Origin: a gamma proteobacterium HTCC2207
GTDB lineage: Bacteria > Pseudomonadota > Gammaproteobacteria > Pseudomonadales > Porticoccaceae
DNA: 64,000 bases
Assembly (NCBI GenBank): GCA_000153445.1
Contig: CH672399.1
Span: forward strand, 1 to 64,000
Direction: 5' to 3'
This document shows positions 8,914 through 55,120 of the stretch, piece by piece (within the stretch, counting starts at the first letter, position 1; each line of letters starts with the position of its first letter). The notes beneath the pieces are model-generated. The model searched no databases and was not told the DNA's origin. It saw only the letters and a program-made list of their open reading frames with translations. The position numbers and the translations under genes were made by a program.

Positions 8914-10968
<2,055 letters not shown>

Positions 10969-11104
10969 TTAGCTCGGACTAGCGCTTGTAATAGATAGTC
11001 CTTGCAACAAAGGGTCAAGCAACGGATCATGCGCGCTCATTTAAACGGCGCACCGTTGCTGGCTTTTATTATTATCACCACAGCGTTTAACGCAAAGCCA
11101 ATAA

Positions 11105-11182
11105 AAGAATTTACCAAAAGAACTTACTAAAAGAACTTACTAAAAGAACTTACTAAAAGAACTTACTAAAAGAACTCACAAG
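11105..11182. repeat. 13-bp tandem repeat upstream of the flavin reductase gene
   Basis: Six units of AAGAACTTACTAA: four perfect copies at 11118-11169, with diverged copies at each end (11105-11117 and 11170-11182). The array ends 6 bp before the start codon at 11189, so it forms the untranslated leader and may supply the purine-rich ribosome binding site. Copy number changes would alter leader length. Confidence 0.9.
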
Positions 11183-11188
11183 AAGACT

Positions 11189-11671
11189 ATGTCCGATAAA
11201 AAACAGAAAACGCTCGACTTCCGCAACGCTCTGGGCAGTTTCGCCACAGGTATCACCGTTATTACCGCATTGGGTAAAGATGGGCAAAAGGTCGGTATGA
11301 CCGCCAATAGCTTTAACTCGGTCTCTCTAGACCCGGCGTTGGTGCTGTGGAGTGTCGCTCGCGACGCCAACTGCTTTGATGACTTTATTGGTGCTGAGTC
11401 CTTTGCTATTCACGTGCTTGCAGCAGATCAAGAGGCTATGTCTAATCGCTTTGCGAAAAGTGGGGCAGATAAATTTGCCGACCTGGACTGTACTGAAGGC
11501 TTAGCGGGCGTGCCAATCTTGCCCCACTACAGTGCCTGCTTCGAATGTCAGATTGAAAATCAATATGAAGGCGGCGACCATATTATTTTAGTCGGCCGAG
11601 TTATTGAGTTTAGAGACAAGGGTCTAGAGCCACTGATCTTTAATCGCGGCAAATACGCGGTACTAGCTTAA
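11189..11671 (+). CDS. Flavin reductase-like, FMN-binding protein (HpaC family)
   Basis: A 160-residue single-domain flavin reductase of the HpaC/ActVB type: FRNALGSFATGITVITA, GMTANSFNSVSLDPALVLWSV and GDHIILVGRVIEF are the typical flavin-binding blocks. Such proteins reduce FMN or FAD with NAD(P)H and supply a two-component monooxygenase. No partner oxygenase is adjacent. The stop overlaps that of the converging isochorismatase-like gene by 4 bp. It follows the dienoyl-CoA reductase by 220 bp that include a tandem repeat, so cotranscription is uncertain. Confidence 0.9.
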   Translation: MSDKKQKTLDFRNALGSFATGITVITALGKDGQKVGMTANSFNSVSLDPALVLWSVARDANCFDDFIGAESFAIHVLAADQEAMSNRFAKSGADKFADLDCTEGLAGVPILPHYSACFECQIENQYEGGDHIILVGRVIEFRDKGLEPLIFNRGKYAVLA

Positions 11672-12285
11672 GGCTCGACACCGCAGAGTGCTGTCAATTG
11701 ACTCAGCACCTGCGCAACCGGTATCACATCTGCATATTTAGCATTTAGATCAAATAGATTAGCGCGGTGCGCCTCGGGATTTCTATCTCCCACAGCCTCT
11801 TCCGCAACCACTACCTGGTAATTGTTCTGTAAGGCATCCACCGCCGAGGCACGTACGCAGCCACTGGTAGTCAACCCTGTCACAACTAACGAATCCACAC
11901 CCAAAGCAGACAGCTGCTGGTCTAGATCCGTATCAAAAAAAGCACTGGCCCACTGTTTCTCTATCACCGGCTCGCCGTCCAACGGCTCTAATGCCGAATC
12001 AACTTTTACCCAGTGACTATCCGACTGAAGCACATTTAACGCCGGCACTTTCTGACGAAACACCTGCGCCTGTTGATCATTACGGTAAACCACTGTGGTG
12101 AAAAATACTGGTAGACCCAAAGCTCTAAACGTCTTGAGCAGCTGTAAATTAGCCGCGACCACCTCGGGGCAGTCAGTTCCCAGAGCACAGGCCGGATCGG
12201 TAAAGCCATTGATCATATCCACCAATAGCAGAGCCGGACTGGTGGTGAGCCCGAGAGCATTTTGCTGCAGATCATTCCAGGTCAT
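11668..12285 (-). CDS. Isochorismatase-like cysteine hydrolase
   Basis: Member of the isochorismatase/nicotinamidase/N-carbamoylsarcosine amidase superfamily. The catalytic Asp is in ALLLVDMINGF, the Lys in VIEKQWASAF and the Cys in VTGLTTSGCVRASA with the usual cis-peptide region before it. The frame opens at 12297, but the ATG at 12285 is preceded by GGGAA at good spacing and gives 205 residues, normal for the family. The TTSGCVR form is typical of N-carbamoylsarcosine amidohydrolase-like members; the substrate is not determinable. It converges with the flavin reductase gene. Confidence 0.87.
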   Translation of the reverse strand: MTWNDLQQNALGLTTSPALLLVDMINGFTDPACALGTDCPEVVAANLQLLKTFRALGLPVFFTTVVYRNDQQAQVFRQKVPALNVLQSDSHWVKVDSALEPLDGEPVIEKQWASAFFDTDLDQQLSALGVDSLVVTGLTTSGCVRASAVDALQNNYQVVVAEEAVGDRNPEAHRANLFDLNAKYADVIPVAQVLSQLTALCGVEP

Positions 12286-46110: not shown

Positions 46111-46545
46111 ATGGTCGATCAAGCAGAGAGTAAAAAGCCTTATCTGGAGAAGCGATTCATATTATTGTTGCTGGCGCCCTTTCCCATATGGATGTACCTC
46201 TATTCCATAAACGGTACTAGCTATGGGTACAGCCTGGAGTTCTTCCTAACCTTTGCACTGCTCTACCCCTATGTTGAAGAGATTGTATTTCGCGGCCTAA
46301 TACAACCAGCCTTGGGAAAAAAACTACCTGGCAGCAATGCAATAATCTCGAACGCAAATATTGTCACCAGCTTGCTCTTTTCCTCAGCACATCTGATTAA
46401 CCATTCCCCACTTTGGGCTCTGGCAACCTTTATTCCTTCATTGATTTACGGCTATTCGATGGATCGCTACAAGACTTTGTATGCGCCGACAATTTTGCAC
46501 TGCGTATACAACGCCGGCTACTTTGCAGTAGCCGGCCAGATGTAA
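46111..46545 (+). CDS. mrtJ: CPBP/Rce1-type glutamic intramembrane protease, probable JDVT-CTERM sorting enzyme (MrtJ-like)
   Basis: A compact 144-residue membrane protein with all three CPBP active-site motifs: EExxxR in YVEEIVFRG (Glu56, Glu57, Arg61), FxxxH in LLFSSAHLI (Phe90, His94) and HxxxN in ILHCVYNAG (His130, Asn134), within four hydrophobic segments. The CPBP family includes the myxosortase-like enzymes predicted to process Cys-containing C-terminal sorting signals; MrtJ is the one paired with JDVT-CTERM. The assignment rests on the neighbour: its stop lies 16 bp from the stop of a giant secreted protein ending in such a signal. No clear ribosome binding site precedes the ATG. Enzyme class is secure; the pairing is inferred. 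Confidence 0.8.
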   Translation: MVDQAESKKPYLEKRFILLLLAPFPIWMYLYSINGTSYGYSLEFFLTFALLYPYVEEIVFRGLIQPALGKKLPGSNAIISNANIVTSLLFSSAHLINHSPLWALATFIPSLIYGYSMDRYKTLYAPTILHCVYNAGYFAVAGQM

Positions 46546-46561
46546 CCTTATAGTCTTTTAC

Positions 46562-49500
46562 TTAAAGCTTCAGCAGTCGTCTTCTAAAGAACAGCGCCAG
46601 CCCAATAAACATTATCAACAACAGTGACATATCGGGTGACTGATTAACCGCAACAGTACAACCACCGCCACCACTAGACTTATTAATTGTCAGAGCAGCA
46701 GAGGTCACAGTTGTACTATCAGTTCCATCACTGATCATTGCCGCCACCGTGACGCTGCCACCCGTATTGCCTGGAGTTATTGTCGCAGTGTAGACACCCT
46801 CCCCTTGAGCGGTAAAGCTGCCTACGGAGACGTCAGCAACAGAGGCTGTTGCAGTAACTGTCATACCTTCCAACTGGCGACCATCCGCATCAACCGCGGT
46901 CACAGTCACAGTGGCAGTAGTTGAACCGCCGGCATCCAATTCAGTCGCACTTAATGTAATCGAACTACCACTGCTTGGAGGGCCAAAATACAGTGTTGCT
47001 AAACCACTGGGATCCGTTACAGTGCCGTCGGCGACACCATCTGTATCATTGGGGCCACCATCTTCGATAAACAGCTGTATGCAGCTATCACCGGTAGTCA
47101 AACCACTGACATAGAGGTCACTTCCAGGTTCAGGACAGGCGCCATTAGAGGCCGCCGCTGAAGAGATTGCGTTAGTCGCGTCGACTACAAAATCCTGCCA
47201 ACCAATATTCTCATCGATAAACTTTCTGAACACTGAATTGGCTGGGATAGCAGAGGCAAGTGGCAATACCAGATTATAAGACTCACCGGCCGCAGCACCA
47301 GAAACTGTAAAGTCGAAAAGACCGCTGGGGTATTCATAGTCATCATCAGCAGAGCCAGTTACCACTACTAACTGCTCTTCGCTAAGACCTACCGAATTGG
47401 TACCTGCAGAGAACACAGAATCACCCAGAGCAATAGTAGTACCCACTGGTGCCTGCATTACCTGAATGGAATCACCACCTACTGGCGCCAGATAGCTTTC
47501 AACAATATTGTCTTGGTAATCTGGAATGCCGTCGCCATCAGAGTCATCTAAGCCCTCTTCAGCGTCGAATATGCCATCGCCATCGGTGTCCACTGTGGCT
47601 TCAAGAACCAGCTGCTCAGCCAGTACTTTTAGTACCACTGATTTAGACGCGCTTAATAGCGGGCTGCCATTGTCAGTTACCTTAGCGGCAACCGATACAG
47701 TACCTGCCTGCATAGCACTTGGATCAAAAGTCAGCACCTGATCTGTGATCGAAACACCGGCAAGATCGCTAGTGCTAGGGTCCCATTCAAAGGTATGAGT
47801 ATCCGCTGTATTTTGGTCTGTATAGGTTGCAGTGACTGTTACCAAACCATTATCAGCTGAGACAATTCGCCCTTGCTGTTGGTTTTGCGTAATGGCAAAA
47901 CTCAACTGCGGGGCAAGATTCTCTTCGACAACAGTAACGGTTCGTTCAACCACAGCACCCAGTGCTGCGTTGGTTGGCTCACCCAACGTGATAACGATAG
48001 TCTCAGGGACTTCAGACTCGGCGTCAGCGACAATATCCAGCATCACAGTTGCCGAAGAACCTTCAGTGATCACGACATTGTCACTGGGGACGCTAAAGTC
48101 ATCAGAGAGCGCGGCTGTTCCACTAAGGGTAAAGGGAATCGTTACTGGGTAATCAGCTGCATCGCCGCTCATGATAAAGCGGATTTCAACTTGGCTGCCC
48201 TCAGTGGTAACGGAGGATGGCGTCAAGCTAACCAGTGGCACTACTTTGATCGTTTGAACTGCCGACTCAGTGTTTCCAGCGGCGTCTTCAACAGACCAGG
48301 TGTTGCTGTAAACTCCCGATTTAAGCGTATTCTCCAACAAGCTAGCAACTGGGGTTAGGGCGCCATCTTTGTTATCTACAGCAGATGCCTGGCCAAAATC
48401 AACAGTTGTCATCAGACCAGTAGCCGAGACAATAACATCCTCAGGAATGGACAATACAGGTGGCAGCTCATCCTTAGCTGGGTCTGAACCCGCGGCATAT
48501 TCATCGGCATTGGAAATACCATCGCCATCCAAGTCAGCACTGGCGTCATCGGCATTATTGGGGTCTAGACCGTTTGCCGTTTCATAAAAGTCCGGTAATC
48601 CGTCAGCATCAGTATCCAGAACTACAACTGACACTGTCGCCGTCTTAGTTGTGGTATTTGAGGCCGCATCAGACACAGTGAAGGTGACAAGCGTATCGCC
48701 AATAACAAATTCACCTGGGCGGTCGTCGCTAATATTGGCGGTGATATCACCGTCTTTATTATCCTCTGCAGCCAGCGCGGCAAAGAACTCAGTCAAACTG
48801 CTGGCAGTCGCGGCCACTGCATCGCCGGGCATATCCACATTAATGGTAATGGAACCTGGAACCGTCAACTCAGGCACAACAACATCCAAACTAACGACCA
48901 CTGCAGCAACGGCCGTGCCTGAATTACCGGCGGCATCTGTAGCAGTAAATGTTAGCTGAGTAGTACCAAACGGGAATATGGCTGGTGCATCATTGCTAAT
49001 CGCAGTAATCGTCCCATCAACATTGTCAGTGGCTGAAGCAGATGCAATAAGAGCGGTGATAGCCGCCAGTGATCCCGACACCCCTTCAGATGTGCCCAGC
49101 ACTGTCAGCTTCGCAGGTACAGTGATCACTGGCGCCGTCTGATCTGTCACAGTCACTATTGAGGTTACAGCTACAGCTTCGTTGTCTGCAGTATCTGTTG
49201 CAGTGAAGGTTATAAGGTTAGCACCGAGCACTAAAGTCGTTGGCGCGTTATTCGCCACAGTAACAGTGCTATCAACATTGTCGATAACATCAACCGAAGC
49301 TAGAAAGCTCACCACTGCCGCGTCGCTAGCTGGAGTTCCCGAAGCATCTAAAGCTGCCACCATAATCGGCTCTGGCGGCGGAGAAAGCACTGGCGCAGTT
49401 TGGTCAGCGACCGTTACTGTAGTGCTGGCAGTCTGTGTGTTGTCGGCAGAGTCAGTGGCGCTAAACTCAACAACCGTTGCACCCAGCGGGAATAGCGCTG

Positions 49501-51709
49501 GCGCATTATTGGTCAGGGTAATTGCAGCATCGACATTATCCACTACAGATGCCGTCGCCAGGAGAGCGACCAGGGTCGCCTCAGTAGCTGCTGTACCTGT
49601 TGCATCAACAGCAGCAATAACCGTATTCACTGGTGCAGTCACAACCGGAGCGGTTTGATCGATAACAGTAATCACTGCGGATGCAGTGTTTGTATTGCCT
49701 GCCGCATCAGATGCAGTAAAGATCACTGTTGTGTCACCTAAAGCAAACTGAGTCGGTGCGTTATTAGTGACAGAGGCTTCAGTATCTACATTATCCGCTG
49801 CCGATGCACTGGCTATAAAGCTAGCGATTGCAGAAGCAGTGGCTGCTGTACCAGTGGCGTCAACTGCAGCTACTGTGAGCGAAGCAGGAGCAGTGACCAC
49901 TGGGCCTGTTTGGTCAGTAACCGTAATCGTTGAGGTGACTGCTACAGCAGCATTGCCCGCAGCATCTACTGCAGAAAAGGTTACAACATTGGCACCCAGA
50001 GCTAGCGTTAGTGCAGCGTTATTTTCAATAGTTACCGCGCTATCAACATTATCGGTAACAGCTGCGGCGCCTAAAAATTCTGCCACTGCAGAATTAGTAT
50101 TTGGTGTTCCCAGTTCGTTTACTGCCCCAACAGTTATAGCGTCAGGTGCAGTAAGAACCGGCACAGTTTGGTCAGCAATCGTCACTGTGCTGCTAGCGGT
50201 GCCTGACAGTCCTGACGAATCACTCGCACTAAAGGTCACAACGGTGTCACCCAGAGGGAATTGATCTGGAGCATCACTCGTCAGAGTCAGCTCACCGTCG
50301 ACATTATCTTCGGCCGATGCTGCCGCTAAGAAAACAACAATGGCATTATTAGTGGCCGCAGTACCGGTCGAATCACCCGCCGCAACAACAATAGCGGATG
50401 GTGCACTCACAACCGGATCGGTTTGGTCAGCAACAGTAATGGTTGTCGATCCTGAACTGGTATTGCCTGCGGCATCAGTTGCAGTAAACACTATAGTGGT
50501 GTTGCCTAATGGTAACTGGGTGGGCGCGTTGGTAGTAATAGAAACGTTGACATCAACATTATCCGTTGCTGATGCACTGGCAATAAAGCTAACAACTGTC
50601 GCGTCGGAGGCAGCGACACCATTGGCATCAATGGCTGCAACTGCAGTTGCGCTTGGCGGCGTTATCAGCGGTGGAGTTTGATCCGTTACCGTGACAACCG
50701 AGCTGGCAGCACCCAGATTGCCGAAGGCGTCGGTGGCGCTAAACACGACGGTCGTAGATCCAAGGGGAAAAACACTATCGGCACTGCTGGTGATAACAAC
50801 AGAGCTATCAACATTATCTAAACCAGTTGCGTTATCCAAATACGCAGTAATCGCATCGGTACTGGTTGAAGTACCGGAGGCATCAGTCGCCGCTACTGTT
50901 ATCGAAGCCGGAGCCGTAATAACAGGGCCAGTAACATCTTTACTAACCTCGAGTGAAGCCGTAGCTTGCTCAGAACCAGATTGAGCGGATGCAGTTACGG
51001 TAATAACGCCTTCATTTAATCCACCAGCATCAAGATTATTCTGAGCCCAAACACCATCAACACAGCTGGTCGGTGAACCTCCAGAAATTGATGTAGCACC
51101 ACTTGTCATCTCAACGAAAACAGCAGCTTCGGCACGGTTACAAGTCCCTGAAACCGAATAGCTGTCGTTATTATTATCGCTGTTAATCAATGGCGCGGAG
51201 GTAATCGCCACCGATAGAGATTCTGCAACAGCAACACTCTCAGCGACAAAGGTATAACCTGCGGCATTGGAAGACTTTGAAAAATTAATAATAGTTGCAG
51301 TAAAACCACTTTGAGCGGTGAAAGGCAGACTATAGAGCGCCGCTGGGAGAGTAGTACCATTCGGCCACGAACCGCCGAAATCAAACCAGCTTGTATTGAG
51401 AAATTTATCCGTCGAGCTGTCATTATCAAAATCACTAGAATCGTCTTGAAATTGTGCGGCACCGGCCAGACCAGTGCTCAGCAGGCCCGTAACATCCCCA
51501 GCTGACAGTTTCGAACTATCAAAATGAACTCTCAAGCCCAAACCAGTAGTCAAATCATCATCTGTGGCTTGATAGCTCACAGTAAGCGTTACGCTATCCC
51601 CCGCAGAGATACCCGACTGAGACAATGCTCCAGTGACGGTTTGGTTTTGAGCGGATACAAACCCAGACAGGGTTAAAAGAAGCGCGAAAGAACTTATTAG
51701 ACGAAGCAT
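46562..51709 (-). CDS. Giant secreted HYR-repeat protein with cohesin-like N-terminus and JDVT-CTERM-like sorting signal
   Basis: 1715 residues. Order: signal peptide 1-20; a cohesin-like beta-sandwich (about 24-165, AGDSVTLTVSYQATDD...LGLRVHFDSSKLS); nine HYR-type immunoglobulin-like modules of about 80-85 residues (about 262-1010, repeated TDQTAPVVTAP...DNVD...FPLG...FTATDAAGN). Then a thrombospondin type 3 calcium segment (DTDADGLPD, DLDGDGISN), a tenth HYR module, a Calx-beta-like domain (about 1140-1235) and a second TSP3 stretch (DTDGDGIFD). Next come a choice-of-anchor-U-like domain (about 1405-1575), a bacterial Ig-like domain (about 1580-1678) and the C-terminal signal GGGGCTVAVNQSPDMS (Cys1684), a hydrophobic helix and RRR. 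Acidic, Thr/Ala-rich, Ca-binding adhesin-like. Likely anchored at the cell surface by the adjacent MrtJ-like protease. Confidence 0.88.
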   Translation of the reverse strand: MLRLISSFALLLTLSGFVSAQNQTVTGALSQSGISAGDSVTLTVSYQATDDDLTTGLGLRVHFDSSKLSAGDVTGLLSTGLAGAAQFQDDSSDFDNDSSTDKFLNTSWFDFGGSWPNGTTLPAALYSLPFTAQSGFTATIINFSKSSNAAGYTFVAESVAVAESLSVAITSAPLINSDNNNDSYSVSGTCNRAEAAVFVEMTSGATSISGGSPTSCVDGVWAQNNLDAGGLNEGVITVTASAQSGSEQATASLEVSKDVTGPVITAPASITVAATDASGTSTSTDAITAYLDNATGLDNVDSSVVITSSADSVFPLGSTTVVFSATDAFGNLGAASSVVTVTDQTPPLITPPSATAVAAIDANGVAASDATVVSFIASASATDNVDVNVSITTNAPTQLPLGNTTIVFTATDAAGNTSSGSTTITVADQTDPVVSAPSAIVVAAGDSTGTAATNNAIVVFLAAASAEDNVDGELTLTSDAPDQFPLGDTVVTFSASDSSGLSGTASSTVTIADQTVPVLTAPDAITVGAVNELGTPNTNSAVAEFLGAAAVTDNVDSAVTIENNAALTLALGANVVTFSAVDAAGNAAVAVTSTITVTDQTGPVVTAPASLTVAAVDATGTAATASAIASFIASASAADNVDTEASVTNNAPTQFALGDTTVIFTASDAAGNTNTASAVITVIDQTAPVVTAPVNTVIAAVDATGTAATEATLVALLATASVVDNVDAAITLTNNAPALFPLGATVVEFSATDSADNTQTASTTVTVADQTAPVLSPPPEPIMVAALDASGTPASDAAVVSFLASVDVIDNVDSTVTVANNAPTTLVLGANLITFTATDTADNEAVAVTSIVTVTDQTAPVITVPAKLTVLGTSEGVSGSLAAITALIASASATDNVDGTITAISNDAPAIFPFGTTQLTFTATDAAGNSGTAVAAVVVSLDVVVPELTVPGSITINVDMPGDAVAATASSLTEFFAALAAEDNKDGDITANISDDRPGEFVIGDTLVTFTVSDAASNTTTKTATVSVVVLDTDADGLPDFYETANGLDPNNADDASADLDGDGISNADEYAAGSDPAKDELPPVLSIPEDVIVSATGLMTTVDFGQASAVDNKDGALTPVASLLENTLKSGVYSNTWSVEDAAGNTESAVQTIKVVPLVSLTPSSVTTEGSQVEIRFIMSGDAADYPVTIPFTLSGTAALSDDFSVPSDNVVITEGSSATVMLDIVADAESEVPETIVITLGEPTNAALGAVVERTVTVVEENLAPQLSFAITQNQQQGRIVSADNGLVTVTATYTDQNTADTHTFEWDPSTSDLAGVSITDQVLTFDPSAMQAGTVSVAAKVTDNGSPLLSASKSVVLKVLAEQLVLEATVDTDGDGIFDAEEGLDDSDGDGIPDYQDNIVESYLAPVGGDSIQVMQAPVGTTIALGDSVFSAGTNSVGLSEEQLVVVTGSADDDYEYPSGLFDFTVSGAAAGESYNLVLPLASAIPANSVFRKFIDENIGWQDFVVDATNAISSAAASNGACPEPGSDLYVSGLTTGDSCIQLFIEDGGPNDTDGVADGTVTDPSGLATLYFGPPSSGSSITLSATELDAGGSTTATVTVTAVDADGRQLEGMTVTATASVADVSVGSFTAQGEGVYTATITPGNTGGSVTVAAMISDGTDSTTVTSAALTINKSSGGGGCTVAVNQSPDMSLLLIMFIGLALFFRRRLLKL

Positions 51710-52030: not shown

Positions 52031-54868
52031 TTAATAGCCACTTATTCGTTTGCCATTAGGGCCCTCGACTGTATTGATCTCAGACTGCCATCTACCATAG
52101 GGAATCTCCACAGACAGCACAATCGGCACCCAACCGCTTTCCTTACCCGCCGGCGGCTCAACTATATGGCCGTGATCAAGCTCTATTAGGTTGACCTTAT
52201 TATTGTTCGCCTTCTCAGGCTTGCTCAAAAAATCAGTCGGCTTGTTAATCCAGTTTTGCTGCATATCTTCCACTTTCGCTTGCAGCGAACTGAGATAGGC
52301 CTCGGTATAGATCTCTGGGTAATCCGCCTTTAAATTTTGAAAGGTTGGCTGGTCTTTAAACCTATACCAGCGATACTTAACCTTGCTGCCATCATCCATC
52401 TCTGTCATGTACTCAGTTGAGTCGCAGCCATTCTCTGCAGCGCATATCCAGCAGGCGTAATCGATAAAATCATCATCCGCAGCAAAAAGCTCAGAGGTAT
52501 TACTTCTAACTTCCGCCTCAAACTCTAAATCTGCAGAGGTCTTCACATGAGGCATTAAAGAGGTGGGGTTTGGCTTGTTCGAAATGGATAAACTTTTGAG
52601 TTTCTCTGGCACAGCACTCTCAGACACCGAGAGAAATTGGTAATCAGCTGGACTGTCTCCAGAGGTCACCTTGTAATATTGGCTGAAACCTCTTTCAGCT
52701 CTATTGCGCCAATCATAAAAAAGGTTGACGCCACGATCGACCGTCTCAGTAGTCATTGTCATACCAGCTTGAAAGGCTAAATTATCTCCACTTGACTCTA
52801 ATTCTGACTCGTCCCCTTCCCCTAAAAACTTAAACTCACCTGGCTGTGTAACCTCAGTTTCGGCCCATTTCTCTAGCTCCACAGGATGAGTAAATGCATT
52901 GAGGTCTGTCGCTAATAAATTGGCATTGACCTGGCCATTAAAGAAATCGACAAAATGGTTGTAGGCTTCAACACCATAGCTCCTAGCGCTTAAGGAGTGC
53001 GGTTCGATATTGTTAAGCGAGGGCACGTTTGGCAAAAAGGCCTTGGCATAGATGTCGCCATTTTCATCTAGCGCGGTAAAGACAGATGAATTATCCCGCT
53101 CCGCGCCAATGCTAATCCGACCGGCAGGCGTAAAACCAAAGGAGTCCTGTTCCCTAGACCAATAGTGACCTGATTGATACTCATCCAAACCGTCGGTGTA
53201 CCAGTCTTGTTTGGTCACTACACTCATTAATTGGTCGCGAGAAATTCTACCCGCAACAAAGTCTTTTAATGGCTGCGTAGTTGCCACATTGCTGTCCCAG
53301 TCAGAATCCAGCAATACTTCAAGTGCATTCCACCTATCTATCCTGCGATACCAGAACTCCGGCACATAAGCATAAACAGGCCCGGAAAAATTTTCAGCCT
53401 CGGCAAAAAAGGTCCAGCTGAGCTTCCCTAAATCCTCCGACGTGTCAGCATTGCCCCCTTGAACAGACCAATTCTCTCGCTGCTTACCCTGAATAAAGGG
53501 CAGCGCTAACCAGGCATGACCGAAGAACAACCCGCCCTCATCCTCATGGGTATCCTGATCTTCATCAAATGAAATTAAGTTAGGTGGAACCACTAATGTA
53601 TTGGCAATCTGTACACCGCCAAGATAACCACAGCCGACCCTCTTTTCATAAAAGCCCCATCCCATAATGGAACTATTGCCGTTGTAGAGATGAGTTGCGC
53701 CGCTGGCCATATACTTTGGATAGTATGATCGCCCCATCTTATCATCGGAGAAAATACCACCTTCAATACTTCCTAGAGATGAAAATGGGTGAGAGTTATT
53801 GGGCTGTAACCATTGTCCCCAAATACCCGCCTGAGCTTCCGACCTTATCGCCGAATCCTTGAAAATTCTTGAAAAAAATGACAACCCATACAAACCAAGG
53901 TCTTTGCGCTCCTGCCCAGCCCAGCCGGATACATAGAGCCTAAACTCTACCGACCAATCAGCTTCGCATTGAAGCCCTACCTCTCCCTCCGGAAGCAAGA
54001 CGGTTTGGTGCTGAGTATAGGTCGCTTGCCGCTGAGCCTCGGTAAGGTTGGCATCAGAGAGTAATTTGTGACTGTCGCTAGCATCATCGAAGAAGTGGCA
54101 GTGATGCGCTAAAAATGTACCTGGAATATGTTCAGGATCTGTTTCAGGATCGGCGTAGTAGTCAACCGATAAACCCTGTAGCGAGTTTATAGAAACAGCG
54201 ATATCCTGGGTTGCCAAATCAGTTCCATTAGTCACTGTCACTGTGGCGCTGTAAAAACTCTTCACCGCGTAGTCCGGCGCAGAGGCAAAACTCAAGGCCC
54301 CAGAAGATGAAATCACTAACTCTGCGCCCGAAATACTAAAAGAAAGCGTATCAGGTTCATCAGAGGACGCGCTGACAATGCCTATTGCTAAGTCATCCCA
54401 AGTAACGCTGTCGATAACACTAAAGGACGAACTTGAGGTAAAGAACGGCGCGACGACTCCTCCAGACGTAATATAAGCTAGGATGTCGGCATAACTTACC
54501 CGTGCGGCACCATCACCAACAACACCGTTAGTCATCACATCACCGGTTAAACCAAATAGGTGACGCATCAGCAGTAAACCGTCAGTCAGGGCATCGCCGG
54601 AACCATTCCCATCCAAGTCAAAGGCCGCTGGCCGCTGATCTATATGATTGGCTATGGCCTCCGCATCAGTCACCGAAGCGTCTGGGGCTAGCACGCCATC
54701 AACAAGAGCGCTCCCAGAGAGACCAAACTGGTGCCTGAGCACCAAAATCCCATCAGTCAGGGCATCCGCCTGGCCGTTACCGTCAACATCATAGTCAGAT
54801 GCCATTGCTGAGTTCACAGACAACGTGACCCCTATCAAGATGCTTAACAAACCTGTTCGGAACGTCAT
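52031..54868 (-). CDS. Secreted protein with N-terminal dockerin-like repeats and a large unknown domain
   Basis: About 945 residues from ATG 54868 (the frame opens at TTG 54880). A signal peptide (to about residue 28 of the longer form, ending AMAS) is followed by two dockerin-I-like Ca-binding repeats, DVDGNGQADALTDGILVLRHQFGL (about 31-54) and DLDGNGSGDALTDGLLLMRHLFGL (about 88-111). A cadherin/Ig-like beta domain follows (about 145-235, SFSISGAELVISSSGALSFA). The remaining 700 residues are Trp/Tyr-rich without a recognised fold; an isolated Cys-rich patch (CWICAAENGC) lies near residue 810. Dockerins bind cohesins, and the next gene on the strand begins with a cohesin-like domain, so the two may form an extracellular complex. 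Enzymatic role unknown. Confidence 0.8.
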   Translation of the reverse strand: MTFRTGLLSILIGVTLSVNSAMASDYDVDGNGQADALTDGILVLRHQFGLSGSALVDGVLAPDASVTDAEAIANHIDQRPAAFDLDGNGSGDALTDGLLLMRHLFGLTGDVMTNGVVGDGAARVSYADILAYITSGGVVAPFFTSSSSFSVIDSVTWDDLAIGIVSASSDEPDTLSFSISGAELVISSSGALSFASAPDYAVKSFYSATVTVTNGTDLATQDIAVSINSLQGLSVDYYADPETDPEHIPGTFLAHHCHFFDDASDSHKLLSDANLTEAQRQATYTQHQTVLLPEGEVGLQCEADWSVEFRLYVSGWAGQERKDLGLYGLSFFSRIFKDSAIRSEAQAGIWGQWLQPNNSHPFSSLGSIEGGIFSDDKMGRSYYPKYMASGATHLYNGNSSIMGWGFYEKRVGCGYLGGVQIANTLVVPPNLISFDEDQDTHEDEGGLFFGHAWLALPFIQGKQRENWSVQGGNADTSEDLGKLSWTFFAEAENFSGPVYAYVPEFWYRRIDRWNALEVLLDSDWDSNVATTQPLKDFVAGRISRDQLMSVVTKQDWYTDGLDEYQSGHYWSREQDSFGFTPAGRISIGAERDNSSVFTALDENGDIYAKAFLPNVPSLNNIEPHSLSARSYGVEAYNHFVDFFNGQVNANLLATDLNAFTHPVELEKWAETEVTQPGEFKFLGEGDESELESSGDNLAFQAGMTMTTETVDRGVNLFYDWRNRAERGFSQYYKVTSGDSPADYQFLSVSESAVPEKLKSLSISNKPNPTSLMPHVKTSADLEFEAEVRSNTSELFAADDDFIDYACWICAAENGCDSTEYMTEMDDGSKVKYRWYRFKDQPTFQNLKADYPEIYTEAYLSSLQAKVEDMQQNWINKPTDFLSKPEKANNNKVNLIELDHGHIVEPPAGKESGWVPIVLSVEIPYGRWQSEINTVEGPNGKRISGY

Positions 54869-55120
54869 AATATTAACCAAAACTCATCAACCCAAGTGAA
54901 ATGCGTCTTCAACGATTCACAGTCACCTTCTATACAAAATTGCATATAACAATATTCAACCACAAATAGCTATATGGGCTTCGGGCCCATCAGTAATAAA
55001 AGACAGATCTTTATATCAGGCTCGACCAAGGCAAACCCTGTTATTGCGAACGAAAAATGGTCCAAAATAGTTGAGCTTTCCGTAAGGAACGCACTTGGTT
55101 AGAACACAAAAGGTTGAACT

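Follow-up and report, generated by a model that had tools for sequence, protein, structure and literature searches.

A predicted MrtJ/JDVT-CTERM protein-sorting pair in the SAR92-clade gammaproteobacterium HTCC2207, with a predicted cohesin fold at the head of its target

A small intramembrane protease, MrtJ, and a neighbouring adhesin-like protein with a JDVT-CTERM tail are encoded on a 64,000-nucleotide stretch of gamma proteobacterium HTCC2207 (positions 1 to 64,000 of contig CH672399.1, assembly GCA_000153445.1; hereafter the window). The two very probably form a MrtJ/JDVT-CTERM protein-sorting pair, in whose proposed scheme the target would be lipidated, cleaved and anchored at the surface. 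Enzyme and tail travel and decay together in the genus.

According to NCBI, HTCC2207 belongs to the SAR92 clade of Porticoccaceae, and the window is taken to come from the SAR92 lineage. The window genome (G000; G-numbers denote compared genomes and L-numbers loci) is 2.63 Mb in length and 98.6% complete. The survey covered 193 genomes, the window genome included; congeners numbered 50 and control genomes 14. The two genes are convergent (tail to tail), with 16 bp separating their stop codons, and re-checking reproduced exactly the open reading frames (ORFs), spacing, protease motifs and tail composition given in the original prediction. The features of the pair are:

46111..46545, + strand: mrtJ, a 144-residue CPBP-family glutamic intramembrane protease assigned to the JDVT-CTERM system.
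46562..51709, − strand: the JDVT-CTERM target, a 1715-residue secreted adhesin-like protein with HYR repeats, choice-of-anchor U, Invasin D3 and a sorting tail.
46565..46675, − strand: the sorting tail, target residues 1679–1715, with SGGGG-Cys1684-TVAVNQSPDMS, a hydrophobic helix and FFRRRLLKL.
51215..51649, − strand: a predicted cohesin-fold domain, target residues 21–165 (AlphaFold2 model and Foldseek).

A two-gene MrtJ/JDVT neighbourhood has already been described in beta- and gammaproteobacteria (PMC11980579). By its sequence families the window pair is of this kind, and the earlier family call is right.

The protease scores 94.7 bits against the NCBIfam model for MrtJ (NF033192, cut-off 75) and stays under the cut-offs of the ten other NCBIfam families listed. 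It scores 69.7 bits against Pfam PF02517 (CPBP) and is the sole match to that family in the window genome. Its motifs are E56-E57-I-V-F-R61 (EExxxR), F90-S-S-A-H94 (FxxxH) and H130-C-V-Y-N134 (HxxxN). An alignment of 22 sequences, the window protein among them, shows no variation at E56, E57, R61, F90, H94, H130 or N134. The AlphaFold2 model consists of helices only and has a predicted local distance difference test score (pLDDT) of 91.4. NF033192 gives matches in 11 of the 14 control genomes, none of them over the cut-off.

Scanned as a whole protein, the target scores 28.2 bits against the JDVT-CTERM model (NF033191, cut-off 27) at residues 1679–1711; the same tail scores 33.9 bits in the genome search. 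The final 36 residues are GGGGCTVAVNQSPDMSLLLIMFIGLALFFRRRLLKL. They have the JDVT layout of a Gly-rich run, the invariant Cys, a hydrophobic helix and a basic end at the extreme C-terminus. The tail includes a 15-residue stretch with a mean Kyte-Doolittle value of 2.72, and Cys1684 is the last of five cysteines in the protein. The N-terminus, MLRLISSFALLLTLSGFVSA, resembles a signal peptide by eye only. The protein also scores 41.1 bits for choice-of-anchor U (cut-off 32), and Pfam gives HYR at 109 bits and Invasin_D3 at 37.6 bits. MYXO-CTERM (TIGR03901, cut-off 20) is absent among the NCBIfam matches listed for it at E ≤ 10. The call of a MrtJ/JDVT-CTERM pair with a tripartite tail is thus borne out, both proteins passing the curated cut-offs of the hidden Markov models proposed for the check. 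In the 14 named control genomes the JDVT-CTERM model gave no match at E ≤ 0.01; at E ≤ 10 it gave matches in 12, none over cut-off. With both models over cut-off and the genes side by side, the window pair exceeds chance, unlike the controls.

The window genome has one JDVT tail over cut-off; the only other match, at 11.9 bits (E 0.78), falls well short of it. A profile of 33 tails, the window's included (A3, which took 33 of the 48 tails listed), also finds one. In the alignment GGC is invariant, and Asp (tail position 15), L18 and R31 are present in at least 90% of sequences; rows were selected either with the JDVT model or with a filter for Cys with nearby Gly, so the Cys-Gly invariance is partly built in. 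Profile A3 and the independent NCBIfam search yield an identical set of 23 genus genomes with tails. Profiles A3, A4 and A5 hold sequences from the genomes searched, and those match by construction.

Enzyme and tail co-occur across the genus. MrtJ is over cut-off in 34 of the 193 genomes, and JDVT tails occur at E ≤ 0.01 in 33 (over cut-off in 27). Both are present in 28 genomes, MrtJ only in 6 and a tail only in 5. Among the 50 congeners the counts are 22 with both, 3 with MrtJ only, 1 with a tail only and 24 with neither (Fisher p 1e-9, uncorrected for kinship). A NusA tree was built from 43 genus genomes and two of the family, 45 in all, and 8 changes of MrtJ fall on it. Of 7 independent pairs, an average of 5.6 show the tail changing in the same direction as MrtJ and none show the reverse (sign test, median p 0.031, range 0.031–0.125). 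Genomes G012, G027, G030, G032, G037, G038 and G048 have no usable NusA and are off the tree.

Joint decay was observed at several loci. In G041, which the NusA tree places as sister to G023, site C retains an ~80-bp relic of the MrtJ end in which the Asn of HxxxN is replaced, and there is no target. G008 encodes a degenerate MrtJ, with only the C-terminal half clearly recognisable, and no target. Site C is empty in G001 (80% complete), and in G058, from another genus, enzyme and target are both broken. The decayed stretches of G041, G001, G008 and G058 are free of N runs. Genome G005 was considered as a natural case of a tail without its enzyme and was rejected, a 100-N assembly gap lying at the spot.

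The arrangement of the genes varies. MrtJ surroundings were taken for 33 other genomes, 5.4–20 kb each as contigs allowed. A tail-bearing gene adjoins or lies near MrtJ in 15 of the 34 genomes, at differing sites and orientations. Pairs are convergent in G000, G023, G032, G116 and G149 (with one small ORF between the genes in G149), divergent in G002, G010, G036, G039, G043, G044 (target with a stop codon) and G046, and co-directional in G115 and G152. In G058 the two broken genes are ~1.2 kb apart. MrtJ is solitary within the 6–20 kb taken in 16 of the 34, at one site beside the nusA region, and 14 of these 16 genomes bear one to five JDVT tails elsewhere. G016, G068 and G176 were placed in neither group. 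Ten of the 28 genomes with both components have two to five JDVT tails (five in G042, four in G033, three in G061 and in G071), each with one MrtJ over cut-off. Adjacency of enzyme and target is frequent yet dispensable.

The targets are also diverse. That of G015 is a choice-of-anchor B protein (451 bits), with a JDVT score of 24.6 bits as a whole protein and 31 in the genome search. That of G028 has 2869 residues and a Reprolysin-type peptidase domain. A second JDVT target family was noted at L202:604-3102 (choice-of-anchor B) and at L203, L209, L206 and L219; its members are 77–94% identical between genomes and are encoded away from MrtJ.

Reciprocal loss in two genomes suggests that MrtJ can act in trans. 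G023 has MrtJ at site C only and an intact 765-residue JDVT target at site A, without MrtJ there. G044 has MrtJ at site A only, beside a target with one in-frame stop codon, and an intact 1580-residue target at site C with no trace of MrtJ there. Site-C enzymes form their own clade (Shimodaira-Hasegawa-like approximate likelihood ratio test, SH-aLRT, 99), and the G044 enzyme groups with the site-A ones (SH-aLRT 91), in a quick tree of a short protein. The simplest reading would be two ancestral pairs, followed by loss of either redundant enzyme. Judged by gene content, one MrtJ can evidently serve more than one JDVT protein in trans. The related genomes, some with pairs, some with split pairs and some with relics, amount to a natural experiment, which suggests that the enzyme can serve distant targets and is kept mainly while a target exists.

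In the proposed mechanism, Sec would export the adhesin, whose C-terminal helix would keep it in the inner membrane, and Cys1684 would lie on the outer side. There Cys1684 would probably be lipidated by a not-yet-known enzyme. MrtJ would then cleave beside Cys1684, freeing the helix, and the adhesin would reach the outside of the cell, with the type II secretion system (T2SS) as the most likely route. Lipidation, cleavage, the T2SS route and surface anchoring are carried over by analogy from MrtX and TraA of Myxococcus. The scheme given for MrtX comprises Sec export, holding by the helix, lipidation of the Cys (the enzyme is not known), a cut made by the CPBP protease and passage through the T2SS to the surface (PMC11980579). 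The window genome has a gsp operon in which GspD scores 465 bits, GspJ, GspK and GspL are over cut-offs and GspI is just under; secretins occur in all 56 genomes examined, irrespective of MrtJ. G000 has one match to Lgt (PF01790), as do 32 of the 35 genus genomes examined, with none in 3. A dedicated Lgt-like lipidating enzyme was rejected, as no paralogue tracks MrtJ presence. A third conserved gene beside the pair was also rejected, since no family other than MrtJ recurs in two of the five order-level MrtJ loci. Clusters c22, c37 and c39 connect a single order-level locus to loci from the genus or family, and none is next to MrtJ; clustering of MrtJ neighbourhoods gave no candidate lipidating enzyme. 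With no third linked gene and no second Lgt, the search for the Cys-lipidating enzyme is narrowed.

Three other readings were weighed. The tail could be a plain membrane anchor from which MrtJ degrades or sheds the target, for example by release without lipidation. In keeping with such shedding, the MrtJ neighbourhood suggests no lipidating partner, and the genus genomes examined show no additional copy of Lgt. A plain anchor does not need the conservation of GGC and Asp in the 33 tails, however, even with the Cys-Gly part of it being partly built in. In the published MrtX system, moreover, cleavage depends on the conserved Cys and gives surface anchoring (PMC11980579), and shedding is considered unlikely. 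It is most improbable that MrtJ is a general CPBP protease, bacteriocin-immunity-like or housekeeping, with the adhesin as a coincidental neighbour. CPBP proteins are common (PF02517 has matches in 11 of the 14 controls), and three congeners have MrtJ and no recognised tail. Against this stand the scores of the controls, where MrtJ is never over its own cut-off, the co-occurrence and independent-pair results, joint decay at several loci, and the 15 paired or near-paired genomes with their varied sites and orientations.

The original prediction also proposed a dedicated system of one enzyme and one target. As a description of the window genome, which has one of each, this stands, as it does for G032 (85% complete), which shares the site-C pair and carries a single tail. 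As a rule it fails on the solitary MrtJ genes and the genomes with several tails and a single enzyme. Reciprocal loss in G023 and G044 and the varying orientation of pairs (convergent, divergent or co-directional) speak against it too, and a strictly dedicated cassette is very unlikely.

Several observations weigh against the sorting-pair reading. The window tail clears the JDVT cut-off narrowly in the whole-protein scan, and when 7 other proteins with JDVT matches were rescanned whole, 2 fell below the cut-off (24.6 and 22.0 bits) despite passing the genome search. The MrtJ model has no PDB match at E ≤ 0.001 in Foldseek, and the MrtJ profile no PDB sequence match at E ≤ 1; the Rce1-like assignment is therefore based on sequence families. 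A literature search of openly licensed papers found no experiment on MrtJ itself. Physical linkage alone is a possible cause of joint deletion, but not of separate relics. Three congeners have MrtJ and no tail: G016 (99% complete), G027 (76%) and G049 (80%). In the first, a short 87-residue secreted-looking ORF overlaps MrtJ. An enzyme without a recognised tail, which the original prediction had set as the evidence against itself, is nonetheless rare (3 of 25 MrtJ-positive congeners). In G136, a 99%-complete assembly, two JDVT tails score strongly (47.3 and 44.9 bits) and nothing matches CPBP at E ≤ 0.001; barring a concealed assembly gap, a JDVT tail can therefore occur where this enzyme is absent.

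The G136 tails are at L096:1440-3800 and L097:8068-9723, one of them 1.4 kb from a contig end. Tail-only G130 and G159 are weak partial matches, and tail-only G078 is 64% complete. Among the MrtJ-only genomes, G068 has the gene at a contig edge, and in G176 no tail was found in the 19.5 kb around MrtJ. G152, also in this class, has beside MrtJ a Cys-tail gene that passes the MYXO-CTERM model (22.4 bits, cut-off 20) but not the JDVT one.

Target residues 21–165 are predicted to adopt a cohesin fold. Modelled by AlphaFold2 with 11 relatives, the region reached a pLDDT of 86.6, and the five models span 50–87. Foldseek against PDB gave 68 matches at E ≤ 0.001; 49 of the 50 matches listed derive from PDB entries of cohesins or of cohesin-dockerin (scaffoldin) proteins, and a CLIPPER domain (template-modelling (TM) scores 0.65/0.75) accounts for the other. 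Among the matches listed, the best E is 2.9e-6 and TM scores reach 0.71 (4uyq_A). Pfam gave no match at E ≤ 10 on the first 199 residues of the target, and the profile of the domain found no PDB sequence at E ≤ 10. At E ≤ 0.001 this profile matches 22 of the 50 congeners and one place in the window genome. Eleven JDVT-tailed ORFs in the genus start with the cohesin-like domain. Weaker relatives occur in ten other genomes (e.g. G017, G018 and G034), with no JDVT tail in the ORFs examined.

Two further features lie next to the pair:

52031..54880, − strand: a neighbouring secreted-looking 949-residue protein with a tandem dockerin-like module, whose role in the system is hypothetical.
54437..54802, − strand: the tandem dockerin-like module of that protein, residues 27–148, with two DxDGNGxxDALTDGLLxxRxLFGL-type repeats.

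The first 200 residues of the 949-residue protein score 16.6 bits (E 0.009) for Dockerin_1 (PF00404), under the cut-off of 22.9; searched whole, the protein has no Pfam and no NCBIfam family at E ≤ 0.01. Against PDB sequences, the best dockerin match of the module profile has an E of 0.45, behind cocaine esterases and within noise. The module is the first row of alignment A5, and its own 178 bits arise by construction. At E ≤ 1e-8 the profile matches 31 of the 50 congeners, and the window genome has four copies, all near the N-terminus. In the loci fetched, the module is at the extreme C-terminus of 12 ORFs (G016, G020 and G044) and directly after the cohesin-like domain in 9 ORFs (G008, G010, G014, G036 and G043).

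At the same threshold the module is found in 21 of the 25 MrtJ-positive congeners and in 10 of the 25 without intact MrtJ; the idea that the MrtJ system requires it was rejected. G008, with broken MrtJ, has 14 copies, and G014 and G035, without MrtJ, have 10 each. Cohesin-like and dockerin-like domains occur together in 20 of the 50 congeners, the cohesin-like alone in 2, the dockerin-like alone in 11 and neither in 17 (p 3e-4). Independent pairs gave 3 same, 1 opposite and 3 with no difference (median p 0.625) and do not demonstrate the association. Neither G041 nor G001 has MrtJ, a JDVT tail, a cohesin-like domain or a dockerin-like one; their relative G023 has all four. Pfam on 8 module-bearing proteins gave no clear glycoside hydrolase, one scoring 20 bits for Glyco_hydro_42M (cut-off 25.8). 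A search of openly licensed papers for SAR92 with cohesin or dockerin found no paper.

It is possible, though doubtful, that the MrtJ-anchored cohesin adhesin is a one-socket surface scaffold into which dockerin-like secreted proteins, such as the 949-residue one, would plug. If true, this would be cohesin-dockerin display in a Gram-negative marine bacterium, with a myxosortase-type anchor instead of a surface layer (S-layer) or sortase. The predicted cohesin fold and the neighbours with dockerin-like modules point to a specific function of the anchored protein that can be put to the test; they are the new part of this analysis and the one most worth following. The predicted arrangement resembles that of cellulosome anchoring scaffoldins in having a surface-anchored cohesin-fold protein alongside secreted dockerin-like ones. 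It differs in that each JDVT adhesin examined has one cohesin-like domain, the host is Gram-negative, no Pfam cut-off for cohesin or dockerin is reached and binding is hypothetical.

Other secreted-looking proteins with a single dockerin-like repeat lie beside the site-A pair (L088:9604-10737, L090:8896-9414, L091:64-1341 and L259:1739-3715). The repeats of L088, L090 and L091 are weak profile matches (33–34 bits), and the L088 protein also has collagen repeats. At L310:808-3006 (G000:C4), a protein of the window genome joins a dockerin-like module to a phosphatidylethanolamine-binding-protein domain; it also has a YHYH-like stretch that scores slightly below its cut-off.

The MrtJ/JDVT-CTERM system is now placed in the marine SAR92 clade. 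The window pair resembles the known cases in the family cut-offs passed, in one enzyme beside one target and in its gammaproteobacterial host. It differs in that the enzyme is often apart from several targets in this genus, and in the predicted cohesin-fold head; neither the split arrangement nor such a head is mentioned in the excerpted description in PMC11980579. MrtX/MYXO-CTERM of Myxococcus xanthus shares a CPBP protease with EExxxR and HxxxN, a tripartite Cys tail and the T2SS, whereas the window MrtJ scores 31.8 bits against the MrtX model (NF040593), under its cut-off of 180. M. xanthus has 35 MYXO-CTERM targets (PMC11980579), compared with one JDVT target in the window genome. Rhombosortase/GlyGly-CTERM and exosortase/PEP-CTERM follow the same tripartite C-terminal sorting logic (PMC11980579), but rhombosortase is a serine rhomboid and exosortase a cysteine enzyme, and both are unrelated to MrtJ.

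MrtJ-like proteases were also found by tblastn at L114:842-1303, L117:7854-8282 and L115:7827-8318, in each case next to a JDVT tail that exceeds the cut-off (46.2, 37.2 and 28.7 bits, respectively). These contigs of metagenome-assembled genomes are labelled Campylobacterota, Sulfurovum and Nitrospira, and binning error is possible. The labels fall outside the beta- and gammaproteobacterial range given in the excerpted text of PMC11980579. Of 80 named loci, 22 were examined, and 6 of these have a Cys-tail next to the protease by eye. In G152, from the same order, the MrtJ-type protease (L092:9730-10095) overlaps a metalloprotease-like gene (10089-11714).

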